From an uncultured Sulfolobales archaeon (GTDB lineage Archaea; Thermoproteota; Thermoprotei_A; Sulfolobales; Desulfurococcaceae), in the NCBI GenBank assembly GCA_938045475.1, contig CALIML010000001.1:1-64000 (forward strand): a stretch of 64,000 bases of DNA. The letters run 5' to 3'. A model generated the notes under the pieces. The model saw only the letters and a list, made by a program, of their open reading frames with translations, did not search any database and had not been told where the DNA came from. Below, in pieces: positions 11,989-19,157 of the stretch. The stretch's first letter is position 1. Each line of letters starts with the position of its first letter. The translations under genes were made by a program, and so were the position numbers.

Positions 11989-12236
11989 CCTCGCTGAACT
12001 AGCTTTCTCCTGCATTACTCCATAAATCGAATTCAATGTAGTGGCAGCTGGTTCAAGCAGTCTTGAAATACTTGGTTCCCGATCATGCCAGTGATGCGGA
12101 GTACTTCATAGACTATGAAGTTAAATGCTGAGGGCATTCAACTTAAGTACATCTATTTCATGGCAATTCAATAATGCCCCTTGTGTTTGTGTTTTTATAG
12201 AGACCAGTGTTCAACTAATACTCTGGGGTAAGAGTA
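11989..12236 (+). other. Non-coding gap, nothing firmly identified
   Basis: About 250 nt without a convincing gene. A short open stretch encoding LVPDHASDAEYFIDYEVKC (near 12070-12130) reads like protein but is closed on both sides by stops. It may be a gene scrap. TTTTTATAGAGAC near 12192 is a plausible TATA element for the downstream cluster. Confidence 0.3.
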
Positions 12237-13028
12237 GTGGTTGATGTAGAGATCTCTGGGATTCTTGAAGAGAGATTGAGGAGGCTCGTTGACTTAGGCA
12301 TATACTCAAGCCTTAGCGAAGCGGTCAGAGACGCTGTTAGGAGACTCCTAGATCAAATGGATTTAATGAACTTAGCTCTAAAGCTATATACGTCGAGTGA
12401 AGCCAGCTTCCAATACGTAGTTGAATTCGCTGACACCAGCTTTGATGACATGACTGAATACTTTATCACTAGGGGGTACATACCTTTAATAGGCTTAGAA
12501 GGACCTGATGACATAGAGTTTTTAACTCCCGGTAAGAGATATGTGCTTGACCCATTAACAATGCACATAGTTTTCAATAGCGATCTCTACAAATACTTGT
12601 CTAAGCTAGCTCAGAGAGGGTATGTGTTTCTAGCTCCAAGCAGCGTTAAGAACTGGAGCGAAGTACTTATTTCAAGAAGGCTATTACATTTGCTTGAATC
12701 AAGGAACTTAGTTGGATTTTTCAATAGTGAGGCGGTGAACTTAGGGTTAAACTTGGCTAAAGCTCAGTTAACTAAACATGAGCAATACGCCATAGCTTAT
12801 GCAAAGGATACTTATGGTGCTACGTTAATTACTGAGGACTTTAGAACTAGAGGATACGCGAGATCTATTGGTGTTAACGCTGTTAGCTCTCTATCAATAG
12901 TTTACACTCTAAGGGACAGCATAAGCGTGGGGGAATTGCGTGAACTAATTTATTACTTAAAGTCCATACCAATAATTATGCCAGTTGAATTAATTAAAAG
13001 CCTGTGGGGCATTGATTTTGGCGACTAA
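12237..13028 (+). CDS. Ribbon-helix-helix / PIN-like fusion protein
   Basis: The first 45 residues (VDVEISGILEERLRRLVDLG, then SSLSEAVRDAVRRLLDQ) have the strand-helix-helix pattern of a ribbon-helix-helix DNA-binding domain, as in MetJ/Arc antitoxins. The C-terminal part (YVLDPLTM, then EQYAIAYAKDTYGATLITED, then GYARSIGVNAV) resembles a PIN ribonuclease fold with spaced acidic residues. A region of about 80 residues without a known match lies between. An antitoxin-type DNA binder and a PIN-type nuclease are usually separate partner proteins, so the fusion is unusual. The downstream VWA gene overlaps its 3' end. Confidence 0.65.
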   Translation: MVDVEISGILEERLRRLVDLGIYSSLSEAVRDAVRRLLDQMDLMNLALKLYTSSEASFQYVVEFADTSFDDMTEYFITRGYIPLIGLEGPDDIEFLTPGKRYVLDPLTMHIVFNSDLYKYLSKLAQRGYVFLAPSSVKNWSEVLISRRLLHLLESRNLVGFFNSEAVNLGLNLAKAQLTKHEQYAIAYAKDTYGATLITEDFRTRGYARSIGVNAVSSLSIVYTLRDSISVGELRELIYYLKSIPIIMPVELIKSLWGIDFGD

Positions 13029-13566
13029 TGTTACTTATGTAGTCGATGCATCACTAAGCATGAAGAAAGCCTTTGGGGAACTCGCTTTAAGTAAGATAGA
13101 TGTTGTTAAAGAAACCCTCATTCAGGTAGTCCCTAAGGTAGTTGAAAAAAATAACTACTACGTAGGACTAGTGGTTTTCTATAAACATGCTTTCCCACTG
13201 CTGGCTCCTACAAAGGAGGTAAGAAGCATAGTGAACGTCTTCTCAAGGATACGCGTATTGGGAGAGGGCACGGCTCCAGGTAATGGATTGATTGAGGCAG
13301 TAAAAGTCATGAGATGGAATAAAGGGAGTAAGAGAGCTGTAATGATAACGGATGGAGGGTTTAATGAGGGAGTGCCGTTAGATATAGCTGCAATTTATGC
13401 AAGCAGCTCAGGAGTAAAGCTTCATATAATAATTATTGGAGGTAAATTAATTGATATGGATGCAGTCTACATAGGTCGCGCTATTGAGACATGTGGTGGA
13501 GAAAAATACGTAGTTAATGATAGAGCACAGCTTGTTCAAGCACTGTATAAAGCTACTTTAAGTTAA
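13018..13566 (+). CDS. VWA-domain protein with intact metal site
   Basis: This protein of about 182 residues is a stand-alone von Willebrand factor A fold. The MIDAS metal site is visible as DASLSM (DxSxS) at residue 10, a Thr in GEGTAPG and the Asp of ITDGG. Such proteins bind ligands or assemble complexes through a bound divalent cation. It has no signal peptide or membrane segment. Translation probably begins at TTG 13018, about 10 nt behind GTGGGG, and overlaps the end of the RHH-PIN gene, so the two are coupled. Confidence 0.75.
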   Translation: MATNVTYVVDASLSMKKAFGELALSKIDVVKETLIQVVPKVVEKNNYYVGLVVFYKHAFPLLAPTKEVRSIVNVFSRIRVLGEGTAPGNGLIEAVKVMRWNKGSKRAVMITDGGFNEGVPLDIAAIYASSSGVKLHIIIIGGKLIDMDAVYIGRAIETCGGEKYVVNDRAQLVQALYKATLS

Positions 13567-13679
13567 AGGCAGGCCACGTGGGTTGAGAAGGCCAATACCT
13601 TAAATACATTCAGCAGTAAGTTAATCTGTAGCTCATAGTCCTCGCCGAACGGCGGGGGAAGAGGCTTTAGGGAAGTAAC
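13567..13679 (+). other. Spacer with GC-rich hairpin between the VWA genes
   Basis: The 113-nt gap contains CCTCGCCGAACGGCGGGG, a short hairpin (GCCG/CGGC), about 30 nt before the next start codon, plus a weak TATA-like TTAAATACATT upstream. It may give the second VWA gene its own promoter or act on the transcript. Confidence 0.3.
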
Positions 13680-14186
13680 TTGAATGACATTGTTGTAGCG
13701 GCTGAGAAAAGCATCTATATAAAGATGGAGCCAGTGCTAAAGTTTCTTGACGAACTAGCGCATGCTTTATCTAAAGACGTCTTTTCAAGAGTTGGGCTAG
13801 TAATTTTCTCAAGCTATGCCTTCCCAATCCTCGACTTAACTTACAATTACTACAAATTATGCGAAGTTTATAAAGCCGTGAGGCCTTTAAAGGGGGTTCC
13901 TGAGCCAGCGCTGGGAATATATGAGGCAATAGATATGATTAAAAGCCTCGATGACGGTCTTGCCGATAAGAGGGCAGTAGCACTAATTGCATCTCTTTCC
14001 AAGAAGCCGGGGATTTCATTAGTGGATGCAGTAAATTATGCTAAAGCCCAGCAAGTGCGCTTGGCAATAGCCACTACCAATGCAGATGCTCCGTCATGGC
14101 TTCCCGAGGATATTGTTAAAGAGTTGGTTCGATTAAGATCAGACAACATTTATAAGATCATTAAATTGATCACTAACGGTAGTTGA
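13680..14186 (+). CDS. Degenerate VWA-like protein, paralogue of the preceding gene
   Basis: The 168-residue protein follows the same strand/helix pattern as the previous VWA protein. RVGLVIFSSYAFPIL corresponds to VGLVVFYKHAFPLL there, and VALIASLSKKPG sits at the place of MITDGG. The MIDAS residues are lost: no DxSxS is present and the later Asp is replaced. A metal-independent partner that pairs with the intact VWA protein is a reasonable reading. The start is a TTG preceded by GGGAAG. Confidence 0.55.
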   Translation: MNDIVVAAEKSIYIKMEPVLKFLDELAHALSKDVFSRVGLVIFSSYAFPILDLTYNYYKLCEVYKAVRPLKGVPEPALGIYEAIDMIKSLDDGLADKRAVALIASLSKKPGISLVDAVNYAKAQQVRLAIATTNADAPSWLPEDIVKELVRLRSDNIYKIIKLITNGS

Positions 14187-14295: not shown

Positions 14296-16284
14296 TTGCT
14301 TAAACGCAACTATTGCGGTGATTGCATGGCGTGGCCTGTGAGGACTAAGATATACTGGGATCTAGAGTATGATGTGCCGTTGCTCATGCAATCTCAAAGT
14401 GGCGGTTCCTCTACTTCATTTATGCTGAAGCTAACTGATCCAGGTGATGCTAGGCCTGCTACACAAACTGATCACGCTAGGCTTCGCGAGGCGTTAAATT
14501 ACGAGTTCGGTAGCGACAAGGTATACAGTAAGCTATTCGCGGATAAGTTCATATTGTTAAATAAGGTGCCCCACTGGGATTTAATGTGGGAGGTAGTCTC
14601 GTCGGGCAACGTTCTCGGCCAACTATACTACGATCCATTTAAATATAGGTGGAGATTTAGACTCAACTACACTGGAGCCGTTCTAGCACTTAGAGAAGGC
14701 TTAGTTGATCACATTACGGCATCAGGGCTCGTTGTCGAGAAGGGCGTTCTTAAAAGCTGTTATTCAAGTAGCTCGAGACAAGTAGTGATAGTTGGTAAAA
14801 ATGAAAGGCCTCGTGGAATAGCTGAAAATGACAATGGCAAGCTTGTTGTAACTAAGCTGTTTAGGGCATTCATTGAACCTGTAGAGACTAGTTGGAGAAG
14901 CTCCTCGCTCCATGATGTATTAAATCTCAACGACTACGCCCTATACTACTTTGAGTCCAGAGCTAAAGCATTCATATACTCAATGCACTCTAAAACTGGT
15001 AGAGAAGTAATCGTATCATATTCCGGTGGGAAGGATAGCTTAGTATCGCTGCATCTAGCCATGAGCGTTGTTGGGGAATTAAAAATACTGTTTAACGACA
15101 CTGGATTAGAACTCCCTGAAACAATAGCTAATGTAGAACACGTATCTGAAAAATATGGGCTCACTAAGGTATTAGCTAGCGCCGGCAATAGGTTTTGGAG
15201 GGATGTAGAACTGTTTGGCCCTCCTGGAAGGGACTATAGGTGGTGTTGCAAGGTGCTGAAGTTAATTCCATTAGCCAAAGTATCTAGGCAGGAGTGGCCT
15301 AGCGGAGCTCTAAACATAGTCGGCCAGAGAGCCTTTGAGTCCTTAGAGAGAGCTAGGAGCCACAGAGTCTGGAGGAATAAGTGGATACCGCATCTCCTAA
15401 GCATATCGCCCATCCAAGAGTGGAGCCAGCTCCACGTATGGCTTTACATACATAGATACAGGTTGCCCTACAACAAGCTTTATGATGAAGGCTTCGAGAG
15501 GCTTGGCTGCTACCTATGTCCAGCAAGTACTTTAGCTGAGTTTAAGGAAGTCGGGGCAGTATGCCCAGAGCTTTGGCTAAAGTGGGTTAACATCCTTGAA
15601 GTTTGGAGAAGAAAGCTTGGTCAACCAAAGGAGTGGGCCGACCTAGGCCTATGGAGATGGCTTACTCCGGCATTCGCCAAGCGAAGGCTTGAGCTAAAGA
15701 CGCCTAGTTACTCAAGCAATTGGAGAATGGAGCACGCTAATAGACTTACTGAAGGAGCAGCGAGGCTTTCCCCCATAAAGATCGATAGAGGAGATGATAG
15801 TCTAACGGCTTACTTCAATGATGAACTGTTAAATGATGAATGCCTGCTAACATTTACATCAAATGCTAAGATGCTTAAGGCCAGCGTCTATAGGGACATT
15901 GAAGGCTTAGTTGTTGAAACGAACAGAGCTAAAGTAGTAATTAGTGGAAGAGTTATTAAGGCATCGTTCAAAGAGCGTAGCGGTGTAGAGGACTTAGCTG
16001 ATGTATTAAAGAATATTTATAGAGTCAGAGGATGCGTAAAATGCGGTAGCTGCGTCATATGGTGTCCGGAAAAAGCAGTTAAGCTAACAAGCAATGGGCC
16101 TTTGCCTAGAGTTCCATGTTCAAGCTGCAGGATATGCATCGAGAATTGTCCTATAAGCGAAATGCTTGTTGAGAGAGTTGTAATGCCCCTCATACTTGAT
16201 GACATTACGGCTTGGAGAAGGAGGACCAGGTTTAAGAGAGAAGACTTGCTGAAGTCGTTTAGAGCTATGGGTTACATGCCTTAG
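14296..16284 (+). CDS. PAPS-reductase-like PP-loop protein fused to a ferredoxin domain
   Basis: The 662-residue protein has a PP-loop ATPase motif, SYSGGKDS (about residue 240), followed by a PAPS-reductase-like domain. Features are LFNDTGLE, a CCKVLK segment, and a CYLCPAS cysteine pair. The C-terminal 80 residues carry a two-cluster ferredoxin (CVKCGSCVIWCPEK and CSSCRICIENCP). Archaeal members of this family are common but their substrates are mostly unknown. A sulfur-transfer or nucleotide-modifying role is inferred. The N-terminus has CGDC, but in the following segment IYWDLEYDVPLL the usual zinc-ribbon cysteines of relatives appear replaced. The start is uncertain (TTG 14296 or ATG 14326). 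The 3' end overlaps the convergent helicase gene by 4 nt. Confidence 0.8.
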   Translation: MLKRNYCGDCMAWPVRTKIYWDLEYDVPLLMQSQSGGSSTSFMLKLTDPGDARPATQTDHARLREALNYEFGSDKVYSKLFADKFILLNKVPHWDLMWEVVSSGNVLGQLYYDPFKYRWRFRLNYTGAVLALREGLVDHITASGLVVEKGVLKSCYSSSSRQVVIVGKNERPRGIAENDNGKLVVTKLFRAFIEPVETSWRSSSLHDVLNLNDYALYYFESRAKAFIYSMHSKTGREVIVSYSGGKDSLVSLHLAMSVVGELKILFNDTGLELPETIANVEHVSEKYGLTKVLASAGNRFWRDVELFGPPGRDYRWCCKVLKLIPLAKVSRQEWPSGALNIVGQRAFESLERARSHRVWRNKWIPHLLSISPIQEWSQLHVWLYIHRYRLPYNKLYDEGFERLGCYLCPASTLAEFKEVGAVCPELWLKWVNILEVWRRKLGQPKEWADLGLWRWLTPAFAKRRLELKTPSYSSNWRMEHANRLTEGAARLSPIKIDRGDDSLTAYFNDELLNDECLLTFTSNAKMLKASVYRDIEGLVVETNRAKVVISGRVIKASFKERSGVEDLADVLKNIYRVRGCVKCGSCVIWCPEKAVKLTSNGPLPRVPCSSCRICIENCPISEMLVERVVMPLILDDITAWRRRTRFKREDLLKSFRAMGYMP

Positions 16285-19157
16285 CGTTTAATCGGCTTAG
16301 GCATGTACTTCATCATTTTAACGAACTTCCTCTCTACACTATACACCATTCTAACGACGTCTTCTTCACTCCTCGCCTCATTGAGGACCTTTATTGCTTC
16401 CCTATTCCCTACGCCTCTTCCAGCAATTATTAAGGACATTGTTGGACCGTAGCGCGATGTGAGCATTGCTCTAAGCATTAAGCCATCCATAGCTTTTTTC
16501 TCCATTTTACTGAGCTTACCCCTATTCCTTAATTTAATGAATATGCTTTGTTCGCGAGTTCCATCGCCTTTAATTACTGCTACTAAAGTAGCGCCGCATT
16601 TACTACAAACGATGTTCCTTGAATTAACGAGTTCTTCAACCCTCGCTCTCCAAACGTATCCGCAGTGCAAGCATAGTAGCGATACTCTTCTCTTCAGCAG
16701 CCTTGATTTATATGCCGAGAGATCTACTGAATAATATTTCACAGGCTTGCTGGGAAGCTTGTTCACAGCTTCCTTGAAGAGAGCGTACTCCCTTTCTGGG
16801 GCCCATATAATCGTCTTGACATTGATGGCGTGCCCGAGGCCCTTGAGTATCTTGACTGCATTGACTGCATCATAGTCTCTGAGGAGAGTTTCTTTGAGAG
16901 CTTCTCTGCCTATAATAGTTTTTGAAAGTCTTTGCAACATGCTTTTAGTTACTTCAACTCTTGACCCAGGATCTATTACTCCAAACCTTTGGGCAACAAA
17001 GAAAGTTCTCCATAAATAAGCGTTGCTATTCTCAACAACTCTCTTAACTAAGTCTTCGTAGTCACTGCTTTCAACAACTGAAGACAGTTCTTTAATTAAC
17101 TCATTTACTTGATTTATTGTTGGGTGAGCATCATCGAATTCAAGGATTATGTAGTATGGTGTAGCATACCCGCGTGAATTAGGAGTTATAGTTCTCCTAG
17201 CTATAGCTAAAGCTATCTCCTTTAGTAAGTTAGCTACCTTTGATCCAAAGAAGCCGTATAAAACCACTACCCCAGGATCTCTTTTTAACTCAACGACAAC
17301 TATGTCATCTGTTGGAATAACGTTACTCTCCCCCAGCTCTTTAAGCACTTCTTCAATATACTCTCTTGACTCAGAGCTTATGTGTATATTGCTTAGTCCA
17401 AGGCGTTTAAGCGCTTTGGCTAAGCCTTCTTTAATTGCCATTCTAACGAGTGCGCCGGCATGTCTGGCGACACCGTATTCTACAGGTATGCTTTCGCCTT
17501 CCCACCTAGGTATAAGAGCTTTAAAAGACTCTTCAACAGGCTCTACGTATAACTTCCCTCTCTCCCTATTGTATCCAATGAATTTCCATAGGCTTCCAGC
17601 AAGTACGAATGCAGCGTTTTCCTCCAGGCCTGTTACTATAAACTCCTCGTTAAGAGATCCTATTACTCTACCAGTGCTTAATTCAACTACATTAACTACC
17701 TTTACTTCAGGTATCATTGTTACCCTATAGAAGTATTGCTTAAGCCTTCTGCCCGGGCGTATTCCTCCATTAATTACTCTTATTACTTTAAGTTCCTCTA
17801 GAAACTTTAGGACTTCATTAAATGAATCGAGGTCTAATCCTTGAAAGACTCTCGATGAATGGAATTCTGCATAAAGATCTGCTTTTTGTATACCGGGGGA
17901 CATCATGACTCTTAGCGCTACTTGATGGGCTAAAACGTCTAGAGGTTTATCATAGATCTCCTCCTTCTCAAGGATCCCCCTAACGGTTCTTCCAGCCAAT
18001 ACTATTGATTCAAGAATGTCGTAGAAGTTCCTTATAGTAACTATGACTCCTCTAGAGACACCAGTTATTCTATGCACGCTTCTCCCAATTCTCTGCATAA
18101 GTCTTACAGCTTGTCTAGGGGACACGTATTGTATTACGTAATCTATATGGCCTACATCAATACCTAGTTCAAGGCTTGACGTCGCAACAACGGCCTTGAG
18201 CTTGCCTTCCCTAAAAGCTTTTTCAGTACTTACCCTGCTCTCTTTCGAAAGACTTCCGTGGTGTATGCTCACTCTTCCATAGAGCTCACATAAGTTAGAT
18301 AAGTGCCAGGCTATGTTTTCAGCAGTATCCCTAGTATTAGTGAATACTATTGCGTGGCCTTGGCTTTCAATTAGTTTGGCTAGCTTTCTAAGCCCTACTT
18401 CAAGCTCTTGCCCACTGCGTTCCGTCACGATCTTTCCTGGAGTTTCAACACTTATATGCATGCTTTTAGAAGCAGTTGATTCAATGACTTGTACGTATGT
18501 TGGCGAATCTACAAGCTCTATAGCCTTGAGGACGTTGGTTAAGGAGGCTGTAAGACATGCTTTAACTAGTCTTCTACCAATAACTCTCTCAACAATGTTT
18601 ATTGCCGAAAGGAGCTCCATCCCCCTCTTGCTCGTAACTATTTCCCTGAATTCATCTATTACAACGTAGTGTAAGTTGCTTAAATACTTCCTATAGGCTT
18701 CATCAGCAACTATGTATTGAAATGATTCAGGGGTGGTAAGCAGGATGTGCGGAGGGTTTTCCCTAATTTTCTTTCTCAAAGATACTGGTGTGTCACCATG
18801 CCTTACTGCAACCCTTAATCCAAAACACTTGCTTAATCCACCGATCCTTAGCTCAAGATCTCTGTTTAAAGCCCTCAGAGGAGTTACATATATTACTGAA
18901 ATAGGTTCTGCTTTCTTCTCTGAGATAATGTTCATTATTGGAATCAATGCTGCCTCAGTTTTACCGGAGCCTGTTGGAGCCACTATGATTGTAGTGTAGT
19001 TCAGCGTAATGTATTTAAATGCCTTGGTTTGAATAACTGATAGCTTTTCATACCCAAGTTCTTCAAGACAACTAGCAGTAGAGCTATCTACAATTACATC
19101 CCTAATAGGTATTGATGGAATTATATCGTTAACCGTTGAACCAGCCATTACTGCCAT
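16281..19157 (-). CDS. lhr: Lhr-type superfamily 2 helicase with C-terminal zinc ribbon
   Basis: The 958-residue protein has the two RecA-like helicase domains of the Lhr family. Visible are Walker A APTGSGKTEAAL, motif Ia TPLRALNRDL, motif II IDEFRE, motif III-like TASL, and motif VI QRIGRSVHR. A winged-helix and an Lhr core region follow. Near the C-terminus two cysteine pairs (CLHCGY and CSKCGA) form a zinc ribbon typical of one archaeal Lhr subgroup. Lhr proteins unwind DNA or RNA/DNA duplexes in repair. Motif II has Arg where His is usual (DExH). The ribosome binding site GGGGGTGAAC supports the ATG at 19157. Confidence 0.9.
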   Translation of the reverse strand: MAVMAGSTVNDIIPSIPIRDVIVDSSTASCLEELGYEKLSVIQTKAFKYITLNYTTIIVAPTGSGKTEAALIPIMNIISEKKAEPISVIYVTPLRALNRDLELRIGGLSKCFGLRVAVRHGDTPVSLRKKIRENPPHILLTTPESFQYIVADEAYRKYLSNLHYVVIDEFREIVTSKRGMELLSAINIVERVIGRRLVKACLTASLTNVLKAIELVDSPTYVQVIESTASKSMHISVETPGKIVTERSGQELEVGLRKLAKLIESQGHAIVFTNTRDTAENIAWHLSNLCELYGRVSIHHGSLSKESRVSTEKAFREGKLKAVVATSSLELGIDVGHIDYVIQYVSPRQAVRLMQRIGRSVHRITGVSRGVIVTIRNFYDILESIVLAGRTVRGILEKEEIYDKPLDVLAHQVALRVMMSPGIQKADLYAEFHSSRVFQGLDLDSFNEVLKFLEELKVIRVINGGIRPGRRLKQYFYRVTMIPEVKVVNVVELSTGRVIGSLNEEFIVTGLEENAAFVLAGSLWKFIGYNRERGKLYVEPVEESFKALIPRWEGESIPVEYGVARHAGALVRMAIKEGLAKALKRLGLSNIHISSESREYIEEVLKELGESNVIPTDDIVVVELKRDPGVVVLYGFFGSKVANLLKEIALAIARRTITPNSRGYATPYYIILEFDDAHPTINQVNELIKELSSVVESSDYEDLVKRVVENSNAYLWRTFFVAQRFGVIDPGSRVEVTKSMLQRLSKTIIGREALKETLLRDYDAVNAVKILKGLGHAINVKTIIWAPEREYALFKEAVNKLPSKPVKYYSVDLSAYKSRLLKRRVSLLCLHCGYVWRARVEELVNSRNIVCSKCGATLVAVIKGDGTREQSIFIKLRNRGKLSKMEKKAMDGLMLRAMLTSRYGPTMSLIIAGRGVGNREAIKVLNEARSEEDVVRMVYSVERKFVKMMKYMPKPIKR

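Follow-up and report, generated by a model that had tools for sequence, protein, structure and literature searches.

The window, a stretch of 64,000 nucleotides from an uncultured archaeon of the Sulfolobales, contains a module of three protein-coding genes on the forward strand. These genes encode RP, a fusion of a ribbon-helix-helix (RHH) domain with a PIN-like domain, and two VWA proteins, V1 and V2, of which only the first has a metal site. The start of V1 overlaps the stop of RP. The features of the locus are collected in Table 1. The inverted repeat in front of RP is possibly an operator or leader element, a putative assignment of low confidence, and V2 may be driven by its own promoter in the V1-V2 gap, where a TATA-like box is found. 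A GC-rich hairpin-like stretch, cctcgccgaacggcggggga, lies in the same gap (window positions 13630-13670), and an RNA element of a known family was ruled out there as Rfam gave no match.

Table 1. Genes, domains and upstream elements of the RP-V1-V2 module in the window.
Feature	Position	Strand	Basis
TATA-like element TTTTTATA 5' of the RP gene (putative)	12192..12199	+	in upstream block conserved with nearest relative
Inverted repeat, 6-bp arms TACTCT-N6-AGAGTA, abutting the RP start codon	12219..12236	+	same arms in relative L026
RP, RHH-PIN fusion, 263 aa, GTG start	12237..13028	+	ORF, domain searches
RHH domain of RP, residues 1-45	12237..12371	+	ParD-family match in 27/27 relatives; PDB ParD/CopG antitoxins
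PIN-like domain of RP, residues ~100-245	12534..12971	+	PF20698 in 16/27; invariant columns; Foldseek PIN matches
V1, VWA protein, 184 aa, TTG start	13012..13566	+	MIDAS complete: D12, S14, S16, T87, D114
TATA-like box CTTAAATA in the V1-V2 gap (putative)	13599..13606	+	
V2, VWA-fold paralogue without metal site, 168 aa, TTG start	13680..14186	+	ORF, family alignment, model

The RHH domain is weak when the window protein is searched alone (Pfam RHH_1, E 0.0083; NCBIfam ParD antidote, E 3.9e-5) and becomes clear at the family level, where the ParD antidote model matches all 27 members and the PDB profile matches include ParD/CopG antitoxins. A weak similarity to the RHH domain of CdrS-type regulators is also detected in 25 of the 27 members. 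In the ribbon, position 5 is an almost invariant glutamate (E5), an acidic residue that would be unusual for DNA contact and counts against DNA binding by RP. The C-terminal part of the window protein has no Pfam match of its own, and at the family level its best Pfam match is PF20698 (PIN domain, TPR-GreAB-C-PIN system), detected in 16 of the 27 members with a best E of 6.1e-13. RP differs from that system in carrying an RHH fusion instead, and a TPR/GreAB-C partner is not among the conserved neighbours of the loci examined. The family profile also matches the PDB PIN proteins 1o4w and 2mdt, and several PIN proteins are among the best Foldseek matches of the AlphaFold model (mean pLDDT 88), none of them reaching E 0.001. 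The catalytic acidic residues known from the PIN domains of VapBC/FitAB toxins are largely present, D105, E182 and D201 being invariant in 27/27 members and D/E200 being found in 25/27, while E142, the canonical second acidic residue, is kept in only 12/27. With these residues, the PIN domain of RP is a likely metal-dependent nuclease, the activity itself being predicted. The initial annotation had placed RHH and PIN domains in one chain and assigned the C-terminal part to PIN, and both points are borne out by the single open reading frame across the family and by the family-level matches. RP is very divergent at locus L053.

V1 matches the Pfam VWA_2 family (E 4.7e-7) and was correctly recognized at the outset as an intact VWA protein, since the MIDAS pattern DxSxS...T...D, with the ligands D-S-S-T/S-D, is kept in 26 of 27 members. 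MIDAS residues are absent from V1 in one genome (L053:7009-7677), yet the S-layer gene and the promoter dyad described below still adjoin the module there. In V2, the DxSxS site reads E-K, and the V2 family as a whole lacks the T and D ligands. Its model nevertheless folds as a VWA domain (pLDDT 93), with TM-scores of about 0.75 to the VWA domains of TFIIH, Ku and BatB-type proteins. In comparison with the nearest relative (NG86 method), dN/dS values are about 0.06/0.49 for RP, 0.07/0.32 for V1 and 0.11/0.46 for V2, for which the YN00 estimate is closer to 0.13/0.28. All three genes are under purifying selection in four species pairs, which rules out V2 as a pseudogene. The description of V2 as degenerate therefore holds for the metal site, whose ligands are lost, but not for the gene, which is selectively maintained and predicted to keep the VWA fold. 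The V1 profile resembles the adaptor VWA domains of Rpn10 and TFIIH p44; together with the likeness of the V2 model to TFIIH and BatB, this would be consistent with an adaptor role for both proteins.

The conservation of the module was examined in 229 genomes of the class, with a threshold of over 100 bits for V1. RP was found in 57 genomes, with one match per genome, and V1 in 56. Both are present in 55, and in every one of these V1 immediately follows RP in the downstream direction on the same strand, so the adjacency proposed initially extends well beyond the window and the module holds together as a conserved unit. RP without V1 occurs in two fragmentary genomes (65-75% complete) and V1 without RP in one that is 87% complete, so the true co-occurrence of RP and V1 may be complete. 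Among 398 genomes sampled from the phylum, the matches outside the class extend over one part alone, either RHH or PIN. V2 accompanies clade A of the RP tree (26 rows) and is absent from clade B, though some clade B members have a second VWA protein close to V1. At L084-L086, a second VWA gene is found close to V1, upstream of it in L084 and in convergent orientation in the other two. The L084 copy has an intact MIDAS, so V2 may descend from a metal-binding duplicate. V2 is itself convergent in L030, L036, L095, L097 and L098 and upstream in L044, which argues that proximity matters beyond co-transcription.

Clustering of the neighbouring genes revealed that a large secreted protein adjoins the module. 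This protein combines a signal peptide and beta-rich domains with a coiled coil and a TM helix, both C-terminal, the same layout that has been described for SlaB and tetrabrachion (PMC5744192), and on this architecture we regard it as a putative S-layer-type protein. Nearly all of the linked large proteins are homologous to one another outside the coiled coil; a PDB sequence search with the S-layer protein returned coiled-coil matches only. In several loci, a STABLE-like subtilase of ~1310-1345 aa is encoded between the S-layer-type gene and RP. In Staphylothermus marinus, the subtilisin-family protease STABLE is attached to tetrabrachion (PMC5744192), and the linked large protein and subtilase have the same architecture as the tetrabrachion-STABLE and SlaB systems. 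An RHH-PIN or VWA component was not found described for these systems in the open-access literature searched.

The S-layer-type gene is adjacent to the module in 29 of 45 loci and in 16 of 24 genera. It is upstream and co-directional in 22 of the linked loci, divergent in five and downstream in two; of the others, 14 are unlinked and two end at a contig edge. By our estimate, chance would bring a given gene to within about 6 kb of an unrelated single gene in <1% of genomes 1.5 Mb in size. Over the RP tree, there are seven changes of synteny state and five of the linked/unlinked state. The window's own genome belongs to the unlinked cases: its module is intact, its S-layer homologue is on contig C9 and its subtilase on contig C8. 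The link was overlooked by the initial annotation because the S-layer gene of this genome is on another contig. Members of genus g29 that lack RP (G087, G093, G163 and G164) have no detectable homologue of the RP-linked S-layer protein of that genus, which suggests a joint gain or loss of the two. In deep-branching genomes, secreted proteases are found as divergent neighbours of the module, a subtilase at L084:3-2678 and a pro-kumamolisin type protease at L087:3953-7012.

A regulator acting locally on the S-layer gene would be expected to have a conserved cis element at its target promoter, and such an element is present in most of the RP-bearing genomes tested. The S-layer promoters of these genomes share a 26-bp dyad (inverted repeat), usually 19-32 bp upstream of the TATA box. 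In L046 it is perfectly palindromic, CTTGGAATCCCCCGGGGGATTCCAAG, and related variants occur in the aligned divergent intergenic regions of L049, L051, L092 and L053. De novo expectation-maximization (EM) on S-layer upstream regions from both clades recovered a 26-bp dyad with a score of 130.5, as compared to 39-49 (at most 49.2) for dinucleotide shuffles and 36-48 (at most 47.8) for the upstream regions of other genes, which rules out shared noise; with one promoter per genus, the score was 107.0 against at most 45.1. Upon leave-one-out scoring, 10 of 12 promoters fell in the top 5% of background, several of the top background matches being the same dyads read from a divergent neighbour gene. 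In three held-out genomes, which included held-out genera, the dyad was the best match in the 9-11 kb locus and lay 100-117 bp before the S-layer start. Most clade A promoters have 28-31 bp between dyad and TATA-like box. The spacing is 32 bp in the window's genome and shortens to 23 bp in L046, L051 and L092; a gap of 19 bp also occurs.

The dyad is associated with RP. In G178, whose RP and S-layer genes lie on separate contigs, the dyad is present (L181, 17.7 bits, -113). Scored at 10 bits, in a tally that mixes leave-one-out, held-out and unlinked cases, it occurs in 13 of 17 RP-bearing genomes versus 0 of 10 RP-lacking genomes with an S-layer-type gene (Fisher p 1.5e-4, indicative only as the species are non-independent), a comparison confounded by phylogeny because the genomes without RP mostly have S-layer proteins that are not orthologous. 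The match in the S-layer promoter of the window's genome is marginal (11.1 bits, top 3.6% of background), the unlinked genome G037 scores 8.5, and the S-layer promoter of L039 has no clear dyad. Three other treatments were rejected: the promoter of RP itself as the home of the dyad, since the element occurs there chiefly in divergent loci, in which RP and the S-layer gene have a common intergenic region; one palindrome pattern for the whole order, too specific to the clade with divergent loci; and a mixed alignment of S-layer N-termini, too divergent for use as a profile.

We consider the chances about even that the three genes form a chromosomal, S-layer-linked regulatory module of many Thermoproteia with RP as the candidate dyad-binding regulator, where binding by RP, PIN activity and the roles of the VWA proteins are predicted. 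RP is a natural candidate because its RHH domain is of the DNA-binding type and because the dyad goes with RP even where RP and the S-layer gene are unlinked. In archaeal promoters, a site upstream of BRE/TATA is at an activator-type position, and the location of the dyad suggests such a site. RP would dimerize through its RHH domain and bind the 26-bp dyad 5' of the S-layer TATA box. The PIN domain, using D105, E182, D201 and usually D/E200, might trim the S-layer mRNA or the mRNA of RP itself, which would provide feedback on a very abundant transcript, while V1 in its metal-binding and V2 in its metal-free form might serve as adaptor subunits that report the envelope or growth state to RP. 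The complete scheme is more tentative: that this is the first dedicated S-layer regulator of Thermoproteota, in which RP binds a helically phased dyad and cuts the S-layer transcript while gated by a metal-binding/metal-free VWA pair reporting the envelope state, we propose as a speculative model with perhaps one chance in a few of holding as a whole.

An unlikely alternative is post-transcriptional, with RP and the VWA proteins forming a cytosolic complex for quality control or assembly in the production of the S-layer or of secreted proteases, while a different transcription factor binds the dyad. The S-layer linkage, the resemblance of V1 to the adaptor VWA domains of Rpn10 and TFIIH p44 and the acidic ribbon residue E5 speak for it; however, the dyad is seen in RP-bearing genomes, including one that is unlinked, and in none of the ten that lack RP. 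Also unlikely, and slightly more so, is that RP is a domesticated derivative of a VapBC-like toxin-antitoxin system, a self-regulated stress ribonuclease under the control of V1 and V2, with the S-layer adjacency an old gene order devoid of function. RP does resemble the VapBC/FitAB type II systems in combining a ParD/VapB-type RHH domain of the antitoxin kind with a VapC-type PIN domain of the toxin kind. Those systems, however, consist of separate adjacent toxin and antitoxin genes and are mobile, patchy and often multi-copy, whereas RP is one fused reading frame across the family, without a separate toxin or antitoxin gene, is single copy and has no match in viral contigs, phage or plasmid collections or PHROGs; it is also coupled to VWA proteins beside S-layer genes, and the S-layer linkage, which takes three arrangements across a diverse tree, goes along with a shared promoter element of the S-layer gene. 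The antiviral or stress defence role suggested by the initial annotation is very improbable, for despite the nuclease domain and weak PADLOC PDC-S70 matches to the PIN part, the module occurs once per genome in mainly conserved synteny with S-layer, protease, MoeA, aminotransferase and metabolic genes and gives no match in the mobile-element collections. Regulation of the coat gene, not defence, is thus the probable function of the module, whose proteins do look cytosolic, as was first proposed.

Regulation of a cell-surface structure by a cytosolic VWA protein, as presumed for this module, has a parallel within the Thermoproteota in ArnA and ArnB of Sulfolobus, the FHA and VWA repressors of archaellum genes (PMC4858521, PMC6509490). 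Unlike that pair, the three window proteins have no FHA domain in domain searches, and the conserved partners of V1 are RP and V2; ArnA and ArnB are not encoded in archaellum loci, whereas the RP module is encoded beside its presumed target. Archaeal RHH regulators of the CdrS type control cell division (ftsZ2 in haloarchaea; PMC7439475); PIN or VWA partners are not noted for CdrS, whose RHH domain is the weakly similar one mentioned above.

The S-layer is often the only wall of these archaea, and its proteins are typically very abundant. A dedicated S-layer regulator for this group was not found described in the open literature searched. RP and its two VWA partners would provide a concrete candidate, and the cis element defined in predicted promoters makes control of the S-layer gene testable. 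The module also suggests a route by which domains of the toxin-antitoxin type could fuse and become domesticated as a housekeeping regulator.

On the 3' side of the module, the window carries a PAPS-reductase-like gene (14296-16284) followed by a large Lhr-type helicase gene (16281-19157). The same pair follows the module in L046, L049, L051, L053, L092 and L102, which marks the order of these genes as old. In three of these loci, V1 and the PAPS-reductase-like gene are separated by a gene for a hexapeptide-repeat acyltransferase-like protein (L046:6698-7396, L049:6687-7391 and L053:6383-7087).
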